Shown: piece by piece, positions 31,729-37,821 of the stretch | Layout: every line of letters begins with the position of its first letter | Position numbering within the stretch: the stretch's first letter is position 1 | NCBI RefSeq assembly: GCF_000177375.1 | Contig: NZ_ADFR01000001.1 | Location: forward strand, 1-64,000 | Origin: Bulleidia extructa W1219 | GTDB taxonomy: Bacteria; Bacillota_I; Bacilli_A; Erysipelotrichales; Erysipelotrichaceae | Reading direction: 5' to 3' | Length of the DNA: 64,000 nt | The notes under the pieces: model-generated | Seen by the model: only the letters and a program-made list of their open reading frames with translations | Database searches by the model: none | What the model was told of the DNA's origin: nothing | Position numbers and translations under genes: made by a program

Positions 31729-32511
31729 ATGAAACCGTATTCCGTTATGACTTTTAACCTTTTATCCGACTTCACGTATCCATGGAGTTCTAAAAAAATT
31801 TCTGACCGATTACCGGCCATTTTAGCTTGTTTAAACGAACATCAACCCGATATTCTTTGTGTCCAAGAATATACCAAATCCATGCGAAGGGCTTTTCGAT
31901 CATTGGAAAAAGACTACCAAGTGGTCGGTCAATATCGTGCCAGTTTTTTCAATAATGAAGCAAATTTAATTTTTATTCGCAAAAATCGGTTTCAAATCCT
32001 TCGTTATCAAACTTTTTGGTTATCCAAAAAGCCCACCCAAAAAGGCTCTAAATTATTCTTGTCTCAGTTTCCAAGAATTGTAACGCTAGCCACCGTTCAA
32101 GATCCATACGGAAAAAAATTAACCATTGCCAATACCCACTTGGATGCCAATTTTGAATCCATTCGTTTTAGGCAATTTCAAATTCTTTTATCTCTTCTTC
32201 CTGAAGATTCTGTTATTTTATGTGGAGATATGAATACCACTTTATCCAAAAAGACACTTTCTACATTAGATTCTTCTTGGACTTGTCCACCTCCTTTAGG
32301 AACAACTGTAAACCGTAAAATTGGTTCTATTGGTCACCAACAAGAAGCCATTGATCAAATCTTTATCCATCATTTAAAGCTTCTCAACATACGAAAAATA
32401 AAAAAGGATTATGCGGAACAAGAACCTTCCGATCATTATCCTCTATTCGCTACTTTTTCATTTTTAAATGAAAACCCAGTAGATGAAGATGATACATTTC
32501 CTGAATCTTAG
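31729..32511 (+). CDS. Endonuclease/exonuclease/phosphatase-family hydrolase
   Basis: 260 residues of the EEP (DNase I-like) fold. All metal and catalytic motifs are present: VMTFNLLSDF, CVQEY (metal Glu), ANTHLDAN (His), LCGDMNT (Asp-x-Asn) and the final SDHYPL. Substrates of the family range from DNA to lipids and phosphates, so function is open. An upstream ATG at 31648 would add a hydrophobic leader, but the ATG at 31729 gives the domain its usual start and lies just after a -10. The 3' end overlaps the convergent NrdD-like gene by 62 bases. Confidence 0.82.
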   Translation: MKPYSVMTFNLLSDFTYPWSSKKISDRLPAILACLNEHQPDILCVQEYTKSMRRAFRSLEKDYQVVGQYRASFFNNEANLIFIRKNRFQILRYQTFWLSKKPTQKGSKLFLSQFPRIVTLATVQDPYGKKLTIANTHLDANFESIRFRQFQILLSLLPEDSVILCGDMNTTLSKKTLSTLDSSWTCPPPLGTTVNRKIGSIGHQQEAIDQIFIHHLKLLNIRKIKKDYAEQEPSDHYPLFATFSFLNENPVDEDDTFPES

Positions 32512-33985
32512 CTAAATAATGACAAATATCCTGATGACTCATTTCTTCAGGCAAGTCAATAGATTGTACTTTCCCAAAGCCATCTACACTTTGGGTTTTT
32601 TCTTGTAACATAAATCCTTTCATGGCATCCGGTTCTTTTTCAGGAATAAATTCCATATAAATTCCTTCTTTTTCAAGAGCCTTCTTTTCCTGTTGTATCC
32701 ATTGCACTAAACCCTCTGCTTGTTCCAAAGAAAGATTCTTCCAACAAATTTTTGCGACCTTTTTCCTTGGTAAACCATAGGCCTTGGTATATGGATATAA
32801 CCCATTTTCAAACAATTTATCCAAGATAATTTGTTGAGTTAATAAGACTTTTCTAGCTAATAACAACTTTTCTTTCCAAGTTGCTTGATCAAATGAAATA
32901 CTCACCTTCCCACTCACCATTTGGTTAGGTACTTCTTGGGGAACAGCTCGCCAAAATAAACATTGATCTTTCCTAAATAAATCCAACGCTCCATCTTCTA
33001 ATTGATATAAGCTAATCCACGGATAGGCAAACGGCTTACCTTCACCGTCTCCTTCCAACAAAACTTCATAGAAAGCTTGACGGATTTTTCTGGCTTCTTC
33101 ACTCAAATCTCCATAGACAAAATTCTCTTTTTTATTAGCAATATAGACTTCTTTGTTCGCAAAAGATTCCGGTATATCCCCATCCAATGCAAAATGACTA
33201 AAAGGGGCTCTTCCTCCCCAGCGAGATGGAACATTCAATCCATATACAAGAGTTTGAATGGATTGCTTGATTTCCGCATAATTCAATTGATCTTTGCGTA
33301 CAAAAGGAGCCAATAAAGTATCTACATGTTCAAAAGATTGAACACTCACCCACTCATTTTGAATGATTCCCACAAAGTTCATAATATGGGAACAAGCAGT
33401 GCTGAAATGCTTCGCCGGTAAGGTTCCCACCTTTTCTTGAACAGATAAAATCCCTTTTTCTAACAAAACACTTAGATCCCACTTGCAAGAATAGGGAGCC
33501 ATCATTTCCATGCCCCTAATCTCCAATTCCCCTCTTTGAACGGCTTCTCGTATACTTCGATCATAAATATCTTCCAACCAATAAAGTTTTGTTAAAGAAG
33601 CTGAATGATTAAGAATTAAGCCACCAATCGTATTTTCTGGATTTCCCTCTAAATAACGCTCCATATCCTTTAAATATCGGTGATTCACCTCTTCAATCTC
33701 TCGAATCCGTTCATGTTCTCTTCGATATAAGATATATGCTTTAGCCACTTCTGAATATCCGCATTCCGAAAGAACATGCTCCACACTATCCTGAATATCT
33801 TCCACGCTAATGACATCATCCACCATTTTATCTTCAAAATCAGCCACTGCTCGAATAGCAAGCAAATCCAACACCGAGGAATGAATGCGCTTTTTAGAAC
33901 CATGAAAAGCTTTCTTAATGGCTGTTTTGATTTTATCCATTTCAAATTCTGTTAAGCTATTATCTCTTTTCTTAACTTTCCACAT
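32450..33985 (-). CDS. NrdD-like protein with ATP-cone but no glycyl-radical domain
   Basis: 511 residues. Residues 1-92 form an ATP-cone (WKVKKRDNSLTEFEMDKI ... AYILYRREHERIRE). Residues ~100-325 match class III ribonucleotide reductase, including APYSCKWDLSVLLEKG, PAKHFSTACSHIMNFVG, QNEWVSVQSFEHVDTLLAPF and GLNVPSRWGGRAPF. The conserved HIHDL reads EIRGM. Beyond ~330 the catalytic-cysteine loop (normally like MCCRLRLD), the zinc cysteines and the glycyl-radical motif (RVxGY) are all absent; a complete NrdD has 650-750 residues. The frame is intact. It overlaps the MarR/radical-SAM gene by 14 bases. It cannot be a functional reductase as known; a regulatory or sensing role is inference. Confidence 0.75.
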   Translation of the reverse strand: MWKVKKRDNSLTEFEMDKIKTAIKKAFHGSKKRIHSSVLDLLAIRAVADFEDKMVDDVISVEDIQDSVEHVLSECGYSEVAKAYILYRREHERIREIEEVNHRYLKDMERYLEGNPENTIGGLILNHSASLTKLYWLEDIYDRSIREAVQRGELEIRGMEMMAPYSCKWDLSVLLEKGILSVQEKVGTLPAKHFSTACSHIMNFVGIIQNEWVSVQSFEHVDTLLAPFVRKDQLNYAEIKQSIQTLVYGLNVPSRWGGRAPFSHFALDGDIPESFANKEVYIANKKENFVYGDLSEEARKIRQAFYEVLLEGDGEGKPFAYPWISLYQLEDGALDLFRKDQCLFWRAVPQEVPNQMVSGKVSISFDQATWKEKLLLARKVLLTQQIILDKLFENGLYPYTKAYGLPRKKVAKICWKNLSLEQAEGLVQWIQQEKKALEKEGIYMEFIPEKEPDAMKGFMLQEKTQSVDGFGKVQSIDLPEEMSHQDICHYLAKIQEMYHLHLLGFHLKMKK

Positions 33986-35075
33986 GACTCATTTTCTCCC
34001 ATTCTTCTTCACTCCATTCAGACAAATTCGCTTGAATAACCTGCTTACTTTGACGGAATGGATATAACTTCCAATGTCGATCATTTTCTAATTCTTTACT
34101 CATTTGTCGTATTTCTTTCTCACTATGGAGCCCTTTAACGACAGTGGTATGAATCTCATATGGAATTCCTGACTGACGAACCAATCTCAAGCTTTCTTTC
34201 ATACGAAAAATTGGTACATCCTTTTCCAATAAACCAACGGTTTCAGGAAGTTTACGACGAACATTTTTCCAATCCAGTTGAATATAATCTACCAACTTTC
34301 TCTGTATCAACTGTTCTAACACATGCGGAAATGTACCGTTTGTTTCCAACTTTATTGCCAAGCCAAGTTTTTTGATTTCTACTAAAAAAGGAATCAAAGC
34401 TTCTTGCTGGCAAGGTTCTCCTCCACTGATACAAACTCCTTCTAAAAAACCAACTCTTGTTTTCAAATCATCTAAAATATCTTGAGTCTCTAAAAAATTG
34501 GCTTCTTGAGGCAAAAAAACCAAGTCTTTTTGATTACAAAAAGGGCATTTCAAATTACAACCGGAGACATAGATAGTAGCACTGATTTTAGCAGGATAAT
34601 TCCCTAAATCTAAACATTTATAGCTTCCGATGCGTAGACAATGGAAATCTTTCTCCTCTTCATGGACACTTCTTTCGGAATTTTTCATGACCATGGCTAA
34701 ATCTTCTAAAAAACGAGCAAAGTCCACTTTTTTTGATAAAATCTGCCCATATTCTTGGCGATAATGATAAATAGAGCTGATAATATCCGAAGCTTTGGAA
34801 GTGGTATAAAGATGCTTGACTCGGTGATCTTGTTCATCTACTTTAACCTTTAAATAACCATGATCCAGTAATCCTTGAACCACTTTAGAAGTAGTTCCCT
34901 TATCGACCACAGATTTCTGAGTTAATTCTTGCATGGTAATTCCAGCGTGTTCATTGACCATGAGTAAAGGAAGCACTTGACCCCATCCCAAATGATATGG
35001 AGATAGGTTATGATCAAAGTACTTTTTAGCATTTCGATAAAGTAACGATAGAGTGAGTAAATAGTTATCTTCCAT
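33972..35075 (-). CDS. MarR-family regulator fused to an NrdG-type radical SAM domain
   Basis: 367 residues from the ATG at 35075; a TTG at 35093 would add six. Residues 1-~140 are a MarR winged helix: MQELTQKSVVDKGTTSKVVQGL is the recognition helix region and DEQDHRVKHLYTT the wing. Residues ~145-367 are a radical SAM domain with Cys173, Cys177 and Cys180 in SGCNLKCPFCNQ, then ISGGEPCQQEAL and LETNGT, closest to the activases of class III reductase of the Thermotoga type. Such a fusion suggests redox- or SAM-responsive DNA binding. First gene of a coupled pair with the NrdD-like gene. No ribosome site; see the -10 just upstream. Confidence 0.82.
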   Translation of the reverse strand: MEDNYLLTLSLLYRNAKKYFDHNLSPYHLGWGQVLPLLMVNEHAGITMQELTQKSVVDKGTTSKVVQGLLDHGYLKVKVDEQDHRVKHLYTTSKASDIISSIYHYRQEYGQILSKKVDFARFLEDLAMVMKNSERSVHEEEKDFHCLRIGSYKCLDLGNYPAKISATIYVSGCNLKCPFCNQKDLVFLPQEANFLETQDILDDLKTRVGFLEGVCISGGEPCQQEALIPFLVEIKKLGLAIKLETNGTFPHVLEQLIQRKLVDYIQLDWKNVRRKLPETVGLLEKDVPIFRMKESLRLVRQSGIPYEIHTTVVKGLHSEKEIRQMSKELENDRHWKLYPFRQSKQVIQANLSEWSEEEWEKMSHVES

Positions 35076-35082
35076 CACTTTT

Positions 35083-35088
35083 ATTGTA
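35083..35088 (-). promoter_or_regulatory. -10 hexamer seven bases before the MarR/radical-SAM start codon
   Basis: On the minus strand TACAAT, then AAAAGTG, then ATG. The -35 region (35106-35111) is poor. This is consistent with a leaderless transcript. Confidence 0.5.
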
Positions 35089-35241
35089 ATCAACTATCTT
35101 CCGTTCTGAAAGGGTTAAAAAGCACCTTTTTAATTCCTTTATTTTATTTTGAAAATCAATCTTTTTTGATAGATCCTTTTTGATCGGTATACACTTTAGT
35201 TTTTAGGCAAAATTTCATTGTGTGTTTGGATAAAGTCTTGA

Positions 35242-35290: not shown

Positions 35291-35986
35291 ATGAATCCAA
35301 AAACGCCTTTATCGCAACAAGATATCATGAAATTTTTAGATGAATCTTACAAAAAAACATTAAATGGGATTCCTTTGGTTAGTCCTTCAATAGAAGATTT
35401 TGCGAATGAGTATTTATCTAAACACACCTCTAAAGAAGAAGCCTGTAAAGATATGATGAATAAACAAATATTAAAGTGTACCACATCCGGAGTGCTCAGT
35501 GGTTTAGGTGGAATCATAACCCTACCTGTTACTCTACCGGCTAATATAGCGAATGTTTTATATGTACAAATGCGCATGATAGCGTGCACCGCTTATATGG
35601 CAGGCTATGATCTGAAAAGCGATCAAACACAAACATTGGTTTATTCTTGCTTGGCAGGAGTTGCCATTCATCAAATTCTGAAAAAAACAGGAATCAAACT
35701 AACAATGAAAGTCACCACCAAATTAGTTGAAAAAATACCTGGGAAAGTTCTAATTGCTATCAATAAAAAGGTAGGTTTTAGATTACTAACAAAGTTTGGA
35801 AGCAAAGGTTTTATTAATTTAGGTAAACTTATTCCGGGCATTGGAGCAGCCGTAGGTGGTGGGCTGGATTATTTTGAAACTAAAACGATAGCTTCAAGAT
35901 CGTATAAATGGTTTTTTGAAGGAGACTTTGATAGTCATGTTAATCATAAAGATGAAGAGGTAGAAGGTGAAATACTATGTGAGTAG
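35291..35986 (+). CDS. EcsC-family protein
   Basis: 231 residues. The middle contains a long glycine- and proline-punctuated hydrophobic stretch (GVLSGLGGIITLPVTLPANI, ~75-94) followed by YVQMRMIACTAYMAGYD, and a second one (LGKLIPGIGAAVGGGLDYF, ~178-196), which define the EcsC family. An acidic tail EEVEGEILCE closes it. In Bacillus EcsC accompanies an ABC transporter, but stand-alone members like this are common and their function is unknown. GGGAGAAG precedes the ATG. It has its own terminator. Confidence 0.85.
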   Translation: MNPKTPLSQQDIMKFLDESYKKTLNGIPLVSPSIEDFANEYLSKHTSKEEACKDMMNKQILKCTTSGVLSGLGGIITLPVTLPANIANVLYVQMRMIACTAYMAGYDLKSDQTQTLVYSCLAGVAIHQILKKTGIKLTMKVTTKLVEKIPGKVLIAINKKVGFRLLTKFGSKGFINLGKLIPGIGAAVGGGLDYFETKTIASRSYKWFFEGDFDSHVNHKDEEVEGEILCE

Positions 35987-36066: not shown

Positions 36067-36783
36067 TTAGCCATATAAATACACAATATGATCTTGATCT
36101 GATAGATCTTCTCGATACCGATATCGGTCAAAATCAACCCTCAATTCATTCACTGATGTCACTTTTCGTTCTGCCATGGAATAAACCAAGTCGCCGCGAG
36201 CTATTTTTGCTAGTGTTCCTTTGGTTTTCAGTTTTCCATCAGCCAAATGTCCAAAAATAATATGGGTTACTTTCCCCGGATACTCTTTCAAAAGGACATC
36301 ACTGTATTCCTTAGAAGCCACATTGATAATTTCCTCTTTTTGAAAATAATCTTTTAACTTATTTTGCCAATACGCATATAAACTGCCCAAAGGTAAAGTT
36401 GTTTTCATTTCCAGGCGATAAAGAACCACTGCATCTTTTGGTTTCAAAACACCATACATAGCAGATAAAATACGCAAATTTTTTTCTAAATACGCTAATT
36501 CTTCTTGACCTAACGAATTCGCTGACAGATGTTGAAAAGCCAGCCCTTGATACGCAAAAAGGGAAGGTGTTCTTCCCATCATAGATTCCGTATCTAAAAG
36601 CGTTTGATTCACTTTCTGAAACAGCCCTTCAGAAGTATTAAAAATCTTCCTTCTCTGATCTTCAGAATAAGTTTTCATCTGTGCTAATAATTCATTCGCT
36701 TCTTTTAAAAAAAATGGTTTTTGATTTGAAAAAAGATCATCCTGTATCTTCATTCTTTTAGTTGGTGAAAAAATAATCTTCAT
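36067..36783 (-). CDS. yaaA: YaaA (DUF328) peroxide-stress protein
   Basis: 238 residues of the YaaA family, which in E. coli lowers intracellular iron during peroxide stress and binds DNA. The conserved start MKIIFSPTKRMK, AYQGLAF (~85) and HIIFGHLADGKLKTKGTLAKIARGDLV fit the family. Length is slightly below the E. coli protein. The ATG at 36783 has no ribosome site and lies six bases after TACAAT. Monocistronic between EcsC (convergent) and dus. Confidence 0.9.
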   Translation of the reverse strand: MKIIFSPTKRMKIQDDLFSNQKPFFLKEANELLAQMKTYSEDQRRKIFNTSEGLFQKVNQTLLDTESMMGRTPSLFAYQGLAFQHLSANSLGQEELAYLEKNLRILSAMYGVLKPKDAVVLYRLEMKTTLPLGSLYAYWQNKLKDYFQKEEIINVASKEYSDVLLKEYPGKVTHIIFGHLADGKLKTKGTLAKIARGDLVYSMAERKVTSVNELRVDFDRYRYREDLSDQDHIVYLYG

Positions 36784-36830: not shown

Positions 36831-37821
36831 CTATAAAAGATCTGATGCCAGGCTCTTTTTATAATCTTTTAAAATTTGTTGTAAATCTTTTAAGGTATGA
36901 ATACTCGATAATGCTTTTTTAATTTGTGAACAATTAGGCATTCCTGTTACATACCAAGACGCCATCCCCCGCATCATCTGGATCCCATTTTTTTCACCCA
37001 TTCGAGCAGATAAATGAATCGCATACTCTTCTAATAAATGAATCCGTTTTAAAAAACTCGGTTCAATAAACTCTTCACCATTTAAAAAAGCCACCATTTC
37101 CGACATAAAATATGGACGTCCTAATAAGCCTCGACCAATCATGATGGCATCCACTCCTGTTTCTTCCAACATTCTTTTTCCATCCTCTACAGTCTTAATA
37201 TCTCCATTACCAATAACAGGAATTGATACAGCTTGCTTGACTTGTTTGATCATTTCCAGATCCACCGTTCCACTATACATTTGACTTTTGGTTCGACCAT
37301 GAATCGTTATGGCGGATACCCCGGCTTCTTCCAAGACTTTCGCTACTTCCACTGCATTTTTATGTTGATGATCCCAACCCGTCCTTATCTTAACCGTAAC
37401 CGGTTTTTTAGAATGATCCACAACCGCTTTCGCCACCTTTTGTGCTTGTCGCGGATCTTGTAATAAATAGGACCCGGCATGTGATTTAATGATTTTTTTG
37501 AACCGGACAACCCATGTTGATATCAATGACGTCACAATTGCTGTGCTCATTTAGATATTCCGCCGCTTCTGCCATAGTATCTGGATCAGAGCCAAAAAGT
37601 TGAAGAGATACAGGATGTTCTTCTTCTACAGTTTCACACATTTTAAATGTTTTTTCACTTTTATAATGTAAAGCTTTATCCGATATCATTTCTGATACCA
37701 CCAACCCGGCTCCTGATTGACGCATCAAAGAACGATACACCGGATTAGAAATTCCGGCTAATGGAGCTGCAACGACTTGATTTTCTATTTCCAGATCAGC
37801 GATTTTCCATGTGTTTTGCAT
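36831..37821 (-). pseudogene. dus: tRNA-dihydrouridine synthase (Dus) interrupted by a one-base insertion
   Basis: Dus reduces uridine in tRNA D-loops using FMN. The N-terminal frame (37821 down to 37486) runs MQNTWKIADLEIENQVVAAP ... DINMGCPVQK and then hits a stop. The next frame carries the rest from IIKSHAGSYLLQDP through KIRTGWD, ITIHGRTKSQMYSG, IPVIGNGDI and VDAIMIGRGLLGRP, ending at 36831. The junction is an A7 run (T at 37493-37499 on the plus strand); six A would give DINMGCPVQKIIKSHAG, the family sequence, and a complete protein of ~330 residues. It overlaps hslO by 26 bases, as in an intact operon. Confidence 0.88.

Follow-up and report, generated by a model that had tools for sequence, protein, structure and literature searches.

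A ribonucleotide reductase without its catalytic motifs and its MarR-fused activase as a candidate nucleotide-sensing repressor of the working anaerobic reductase in Bulleidia extructa

The subject of this analysis is a pair of overlapping genes in a stretch of 64,000 nucleotides from Bulleidia extructa W1219 (contig NZ_ADFR01000001.1, positions 1 to 64,000; the whole stretch is hereafter called the window), which encode relatives of the two components of an anaerobic, class III ribonucleotide reductase (RNR), namely the reductase NrdD and its radical S-adenosylmethionine (SAM) activase NrdG. Both open reading frames (ORFs) lie on the minus strand, the activase-like gene being the upstream one, and the 14-base overlap noted in the original prediction matches the coordinates. 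The features of the locus are as follows.

33972-35093, minus strand: fusion of MarR with an NrdG2-type radical-SAM activase, 373 amino acids from a TTG start or 367 from the likelier ATG at 35075
34659-35066, minus strand: MarR winged-helix domain with dimerisation helices, residues about 10-145 (Pfam; mean model confidence, as the predicted local distance difference test or pLDDT, about 90)
34074-34631, minus strand: NrdG2-type radical-SAM domain, residues 155-340 (TIGR02495; PFL activase fold; GGEP motif retained)
34536-34559, minus strand: [4Fe-4S] cysteine motif CX3CX2C (C179, C183, C186)
32450-33985, minus strand: short NrdD-like pseudo-enzyme, 511 amino acids, its first 14 bases shared with the fusion gene
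33710-33985, minus strand: ATP-cone, residues 1-92 (PF03477, 8.7e-21), more highly conserved than the rest of the protein
32465-33637, minus strand: compacted class III RNR barrel, residues 117-507 (fold match and alignment)
32920-32935, minus strand: excision point, read from the alignment, of the catalytic finger loop that in active relatives reads MCCRLRL

The upstream gene is a true fusion of MarR and NrdG2 with an intact cluster motif. It matches the Pfam MarR profiles PF12802 and PF01047 above their cut-offs, in addition to radical SAM, and passes the NCBIfam cut-off of TIGR02495 (NrdG2) with 166.6 bits against 131.15, in agreement with the original prediction, which had joined a MarR winged helix to an NrdG-type domain. 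The 35075 end assigned there to the ORF fits an ATG that lies six codons downstream of the TTG start. In the AlphaFold model (pLDDT 91.3), a confident MarR fold with dimer helices is followed by a barrel resembling that of the PFL activase. The question of whether the MarR-like region might be a non-DNA-binding domain can be answered in the same terms. Namely, it scores as MarR and is predicted to fold as a true one, complete with wing and dimer helices (the closest solved structures are 3s2w, 3bpv and 1lj9), and Asp64, Lys65, Asp89 and Arg91 of this domain are invariant across 47 fusions.

The downstream protein is best matched by the profile PRK08270 (4e-96), with the NRDD profile covering residues 117-332. 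As had been proposed, the alignment contains no MCCRLRL finger loop, no zinc cysteines and no glycyl-radical motif, and EIRGM stands in place of HIHDL. The proposal that the protein consists of an ATP-cone and about 225 residues of the core holds for the cone and not for the end of the core, since residues 330-511 align to the second half of the barrel, shortened by excision of the catalytic loop. Prediction of the structure (pLDDT 85.6) gives the same picture for the C-terminal part: residues 119-507 of the model superpose on residues 65-589 of the Thermotoga NrdD (4con) with a Z-score of 26.9 over 372 residues at 2.8 Å, and the chain stops before the zinc and glycyl-radical domain. As modelled, the protein is thus a trimmed but whole ten-stranded alpha/beta barrel minus the catalytic loop and the glycyl-radical domain, and it probably no longer reduces ribonucleotides.

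That said, the pair is under purifying selection and is no pseudogene. The sister species G096, of the same genus and with a complete genome of 1.55 Mb, carries the same pair at 81% identity, and both frames are open in both sister species. Between the two, the nonsynonymous and synonymous rates (dN/dS) are 0.122/1.68 (about 0.07) for the short NrdD and 0.121/1.51 (about 0.08) for the fusion, similar to those of the comparison genes hslO (0.103/1.02, or 0.10) and CopA (0.117/1.42, or 0.08), and the ratio is low in each domain of the pair (about 0.07 in every part); because dS is saturated, these ratios are only rough. Given the 81% identity in G096 and comparable forms in other genera, the short form is neither a chance product nor peculiar to a single strain, which was a possibility raised at the outset: it recurs in G096, in G261, G262 and G036, and in about two dozen other genomes of other lineages.

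Elsewhere in the same genome, on contig C14, there is a complete class III pair, consisting of an NrdD of 746 amino acids with a C-terminal RTCGYIGTQFWNQGR and an adjoining NrdG, and a class I NrdA/NrdB pair about 9 kb beyond it. Consequently, the short NrdD is unnecessary for the synthesis of deoxynucleoside triphosphates. The separate full-length nrdDG that the original prediction had asked about is thus present here, and a second nrdDG is likewise found in 25 genomes with a comparable inactive pair.

While a single-protein query against the collection of named genomes returned no relative, relatives were recovered with an alignment of the fusions; most of them are metagenome-assembled genomes (MAGs), and their assignment to the order Erysipelotrichales is judged from the named ones. 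Named carriers of the fusion are Erysipelotrichaceae MAGs, many from rumen or gut, and the best matches outside them align to the radical-SAM part only. Within the order, the usual neighbour of the fusion is an active NrdD, and in most relatives the orthologous locus combines MarR-NrdG2 with a full-length NrdD of about 790 amino acids bearing MCCRLRL, SRITGYYRP and a C-terminal redoxin domain; in one such active relative, G034, it shares with the window pair the neighbours dusB and hslO. We classified 73 NrdD/activase pairs by motif loss, as read from sequence, calling an NrdD dead if its finger-loop cysteines are gone. By this measure 44 pairs have an active-looking NrdD, 31 with MarR-NrdG2 and 13 with plain NrdG2, and in all of the remaining 29 a dead NrdD lies beside MarR-NrdG2 and never beside plain NrdG2. 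The Grx (redoxin) domain is gone in dead NrdDs, and the glycyl motif is also gone in 9 of the 29. Two candidates for further short forms, in G001 and G214, were rejected as a frameshift and a run of N, respectively, and a match from Clostridia (L237, G237-type), which looked like a fusion outside the order, turned out to be a plain NrdG2 whose reading frame had been extended to a remote start codon.

From these comparisons it appears that catalysis is lost on several separate occasions. The fusion tree, a quick tree like the others used here, requires at least six changes to account for the dead state and rejects a single dead clade (approximately unbiased test, p 3.6e-7); in particular, G036, of another family, is dead and sister to the active G047. 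The genomes G005, G094, G107, G306 and G015 have two loci, one with an active NrdD and plain NrdG2 and the other with a dead NrdD and the MarR fusion. An intermediate state is also found (L075-L098; genomes G213, G212, G204-G209, G199-G202, G142, G306, G005, G107, G094, G012 and G024), in which the finger-loop cysteines and the redoxin domain are gone and the zinc site, the glycyl-radical motif and MarR-NrdG2 are intact. In such proteins a radical could form without reducing nucleotides, and therefore the glycyl radical itself may serve as a signal. Finally, the cluster cysteines of the radical-SAM domain are lost in two lineages, G261/G262 and G079/G266. The corresponding fusions (L077 116-1246, L082 4598-5731, L073 4786-5961 and L074 6655-7728, with the variants DNFRCPYY, SNFRCPFD and NNYKCSYS) keep the middle cysteine and GGEP, and therefore possibly still bind SAM without radical chemistry.

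Positions at which 90% or more of the active NrdDs agree show what selection keeps in the dead ones. Retention at these positions in the dead proteins is highest in the ATP-cone, at 92% (98% in active ones); it falls to 61% in the flap and 65% in the first part of the barrel, is lowest around the finger loop (43%) and reaches 57% past that loop, in the second half of the barrel. The corresponding values for the window protein are 85% (cone), 36% (flap), 45% (first barrel part), 7% (finger loop) and 21% (beyond). Together with the invariant MarR residues of the fusions, these values indicate that selection protects the putative nucleotide sensor and the putative DNA binder.

As for the DNA that may be bound, comparison of the promoters of fusion operons gave the palindrome TAGTTG-N6-CAACTA, derived from those of active fusions and taken instead of a first pattern, AGTTGC-N4-GCAACT, which was dropped as too genus-specific. 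With at most one mismatch allowed, 22 of 31 active fusion operons have it in their own promoters, vs 1 of 13 active plain operons, 6 of 28 dead pairs and none of the dead pairs lacking the glycyl motif. The window genome has a single exact copy, outside the window at C14 22553-22570 and 28 bp upstream of the working nrdD, where it is part of a perfect 24-bp palindrome, AATTAGTTGCGTACGCAACTAATT; no good site was found in the window itself or in the 231 bases around the start of the class I nrdA. A second nrdDG is present in 25 dead-pair genomes, the cluster-less lineages G079, G266, G261 and G262 among them, and every one of the 25 has an exact copy 17-73 bp upstream of the second nrdD, vs 2 of 62 pair-less genomes with a canonical nrdD (G022 and G185; Fisher p 8e-20, kinship ignored). 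In G261 and G262 this second nrdD is of a non-orthologous type with little similarity to the canonical NrdD of the window genome, and therefore common promoter ancestry is not the whole explanation. In genomes that have both sites, the six central bases of one resemble those of the other more closely than they do across genomes (p 0.00045, confounded by kinship). Whole-genome counts of the palindrome show no enrichment over a reversed control pattern; only its position is informative.

That position is suggestive of the sign of regulation. The nrdD promoter of G000 reads TTGAAA-17-TATGAT, 14 bases, the palindrome, the ribosome site and ATG, and in six further nrdD promoters a -10-like box is followed by the palindrome and the start codon. 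Since a MarR dimer sitting between the -10 box and the ribosome site would block transcription, repression is the likely outcome. The palindrome is seen in two further settings. In G306, the promoter of a second, active operon of NrdD and plain NrdG2 (L102 2785-3540) carries it with one mismatch, as if that operon were under the control of the dead pair of the same genome. Standalone MarR-family genes (L313, L314, L326, L330, L184 and L199) carry it in their own promoters, which suggests a common class of operator in the group.

The usual regulator of such operons is seemingly missing. NrdR, termed the universal bacterial repressor of ribonucleotide reductase genes (PMC12051234), acts via ATP/dATP-dependent oligomerisation (PMC9110341). 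Among 36 genomes searched with its zinc-ribbon profile (TIGR00244), none passes the cut-off, which is passed by Bacillus subtilis, E. coli and other controls; the weak matches in those genomes are the ATP-cones of reductases.

Taken together, we consider it probable that the pair is a dedicated two-protein, MarR-based and nucleotide-responsive transcription regulator, namely a repressor, of the working nrdDG. We infer that the fusion is the binder of the palindrome, that the effect is repression and that ATP and dATP are the signal. The MarR domain would bind TAGTTG-N6-CAACTA, downstream of the promoter and ahead of the nrdD start, and so repress nrdDG, with the NrdD-like partner as a sensory subunit whose ATP-cone would read ATP vs dATP. 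The state of the cone could be relayed to the MarR dimer through the old contact between NrdD and NrdG, and the MarR domains could be released or locked by a change of assembly, as in NrdR or in the NrdD of Prevotella copri, where the cone governs whether the enzyme is a dimer or a tetramer (PMC11226230). In this way, the pair may have taken over the job of NrdR. The original prediction had suggested that the pair could sense or regulate nucleotide state or anaerobiosis, the activase taking on a second role at DNA, and the distribution of the palindrome and the conservation of the ATP-cone both support this idea, in which binding to DNA would be the fusion's part. As for its history, the ancestor would have been an active anaerobic RNR with a MarR domain joined to its activase; by means of this domain it would have repressed its own operon, which bore the operator in its promoter, and often nrdDG as well. 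In genomes with nrdDG, the enzyme function of the fused pair would have become dispensable, catalysis and the operator in its own promoter would have been lost, and the pair would have been kept as the regulator of nrdDG.

Several points weigh against this reading. The first motif of the ATP-cone in the window protein is KRDN and not KRDG, and no good copy of the palindrome is present in the pair's own promoter. Related genomes are non-independent points in the co-occurrence count. In G022 (L308) and G185 (L317), the site stands at nrdD without a detected pair, which may reflect either an assembly gap, a recent loss or another MarR. Indeed, the standalone MarR genes carry the same class of palindrome, and therefore another MarR could be the binder; as such proteins exist in the group, the assignment of the binder draws on co-occurrence. 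One can carry this further and suppose that the palindrome before nrdDG belongs to a standalone MarR, the fusion and the dead NrdD doing something else. The shared operator class and the two pair-less genomes would be in keeping with this, but we hold it to be improbable in view of the co-occurrence of 25 of 25 against 2 of 62, the presence of the same site before 22 of 31 active fusion operons, the covarying centres of the two sites within genomes and the presence of only one exact site in the window genome. 

A different possibility, unlikely in our view, is that the fusion alone regulates nrdDG in response to redox state or oxygen, sensed via [4Fe-4S] or SAM, and that the dead NrdD is merely structural. 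The controlled operon does encode an anaerobic enzyme, and the window pair, like most dead pairs, has an intact cluster motif and GGEP; however, G261/G262 and G079/G266 have kept both the pair and the nrdDG operator without the cluster cysteines, and the ATP-cone as the best-kept part of the dead NrdD would be left unexplained. The original prediction had also allowed for action on a separate, genuine NrdD. Such a protein, with its glycyl-radical motif, is present, and the cluster in the window is intact, so one could picture the radical-SAM part as a spare activase, with the short NrdD as a scaffold and MarR limited to autoregulation. Nevertheless, the genuine NrdD has its own adjoining NrdG, NrdG2 goes with a different type of NrdD, the cluster is gone in two lineages and a good site is lacking in the promoter of the pair itself, all of which makes this quite improbable. 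Finally, the missing catalytic parts and the small genome of 1.42 Mb might bring to mind a locus in decay, left over from an anaerobic RNR that shrinking genomes have lost, a view that we find barely credible against frames open in both sister species, dN/dS of about 0.07 in every part, a conserved ATP-cone and the same outcome in several lineages, always with a MarR partner.

The surroundings of the pair differ between the sister species. In the window, an EcsC-family gene (35291-35986, plus strand), preceded by a (TA)n run, is divergent from the fusion gene, whereas in G096 yaaA is directly upstream of the fusion. The yaaA gene is intact in the window (36067-36783) but looks frame-broken in G096 (L051 2783-3498, plus strand). 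Conversely, dusB at 36831-37821 (minus strand) is split in the window by a frameshift near GCPVQK into two overlapping ORFs and is intact, with 324 amino acids, in G096 (L051 1665-2639); the split is either a sequencing error or a young pseudogene.

In broader terms, we lean slightly towards the view that an RNR and its activase have turned, several times independently, into a nucleotide-sensing repressor of the remaining reductase, replacing NrdR in Erysipelotrichales, and that the still-active MarR-fused pairs are enzymes repressing their own and related operons. An order in which NrdR went undetected in the 36 genomes would then have a candidate substitute built from the reductase itself. 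If true, an enzyme would have repeatedly become a pure sensor, with living intermediates: active and autoregulated pairs, pairs without the catalytic cysteines but with the glycyl motif, pairs without the glycyl motif, and pairs in which the cluster of the activase is gone too. What is more, this supplies a concrete candidate operator, target operon and sensor domain.

Among known systems, the proposed regulator resembles NrdR (PMC9110341, PMC12051234), with which it would share an ATP-cone potentially reading ATP/dATP coupled to a DNA-binding part, as well as RNR operons as candidate targets and a site close to the transcription start. Unlike in NrdR, sensor and DNA binder would here be two proteins: a dead RNR carries the cone, and the MarR domain belongs to a second protein derived from the activase. 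There is no zinc ribbon, and a single MarR-type palindrome takes the place of the two NrdR boxes. By descent, the pair belongs with the system of redoxin-fused class III NrdD and NrdG2 (PRK08270 / TIGR02495); yet the window protein is without the finger-loop cysteines, zinc site, glycyl-radical and redoxin domains of a PRK08270-type NrdD, and its activase, unlike a plain NrdG2, carries a fused MarR. With MarR/SlyA repressors it has in common the full MarR fold and a putative palindromic operator with TTG/CAA half sites, whereas the radical-SAM tail and the RNR partner set it apart from the small-molecule regulators of that family; in the open-access papers searched, we found no description of a MarR with such a tail and partner. 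PutA, BirA and NadR are examples of trigger enzymes, in which catalysis and regulation are combined. The window pair, as proposed here, would resemble them in being an enzyme pair with a DNA-binding part that senses its own pathway, and would differ from them in that catalysis was repeatedly lost and the regulatory part retained.

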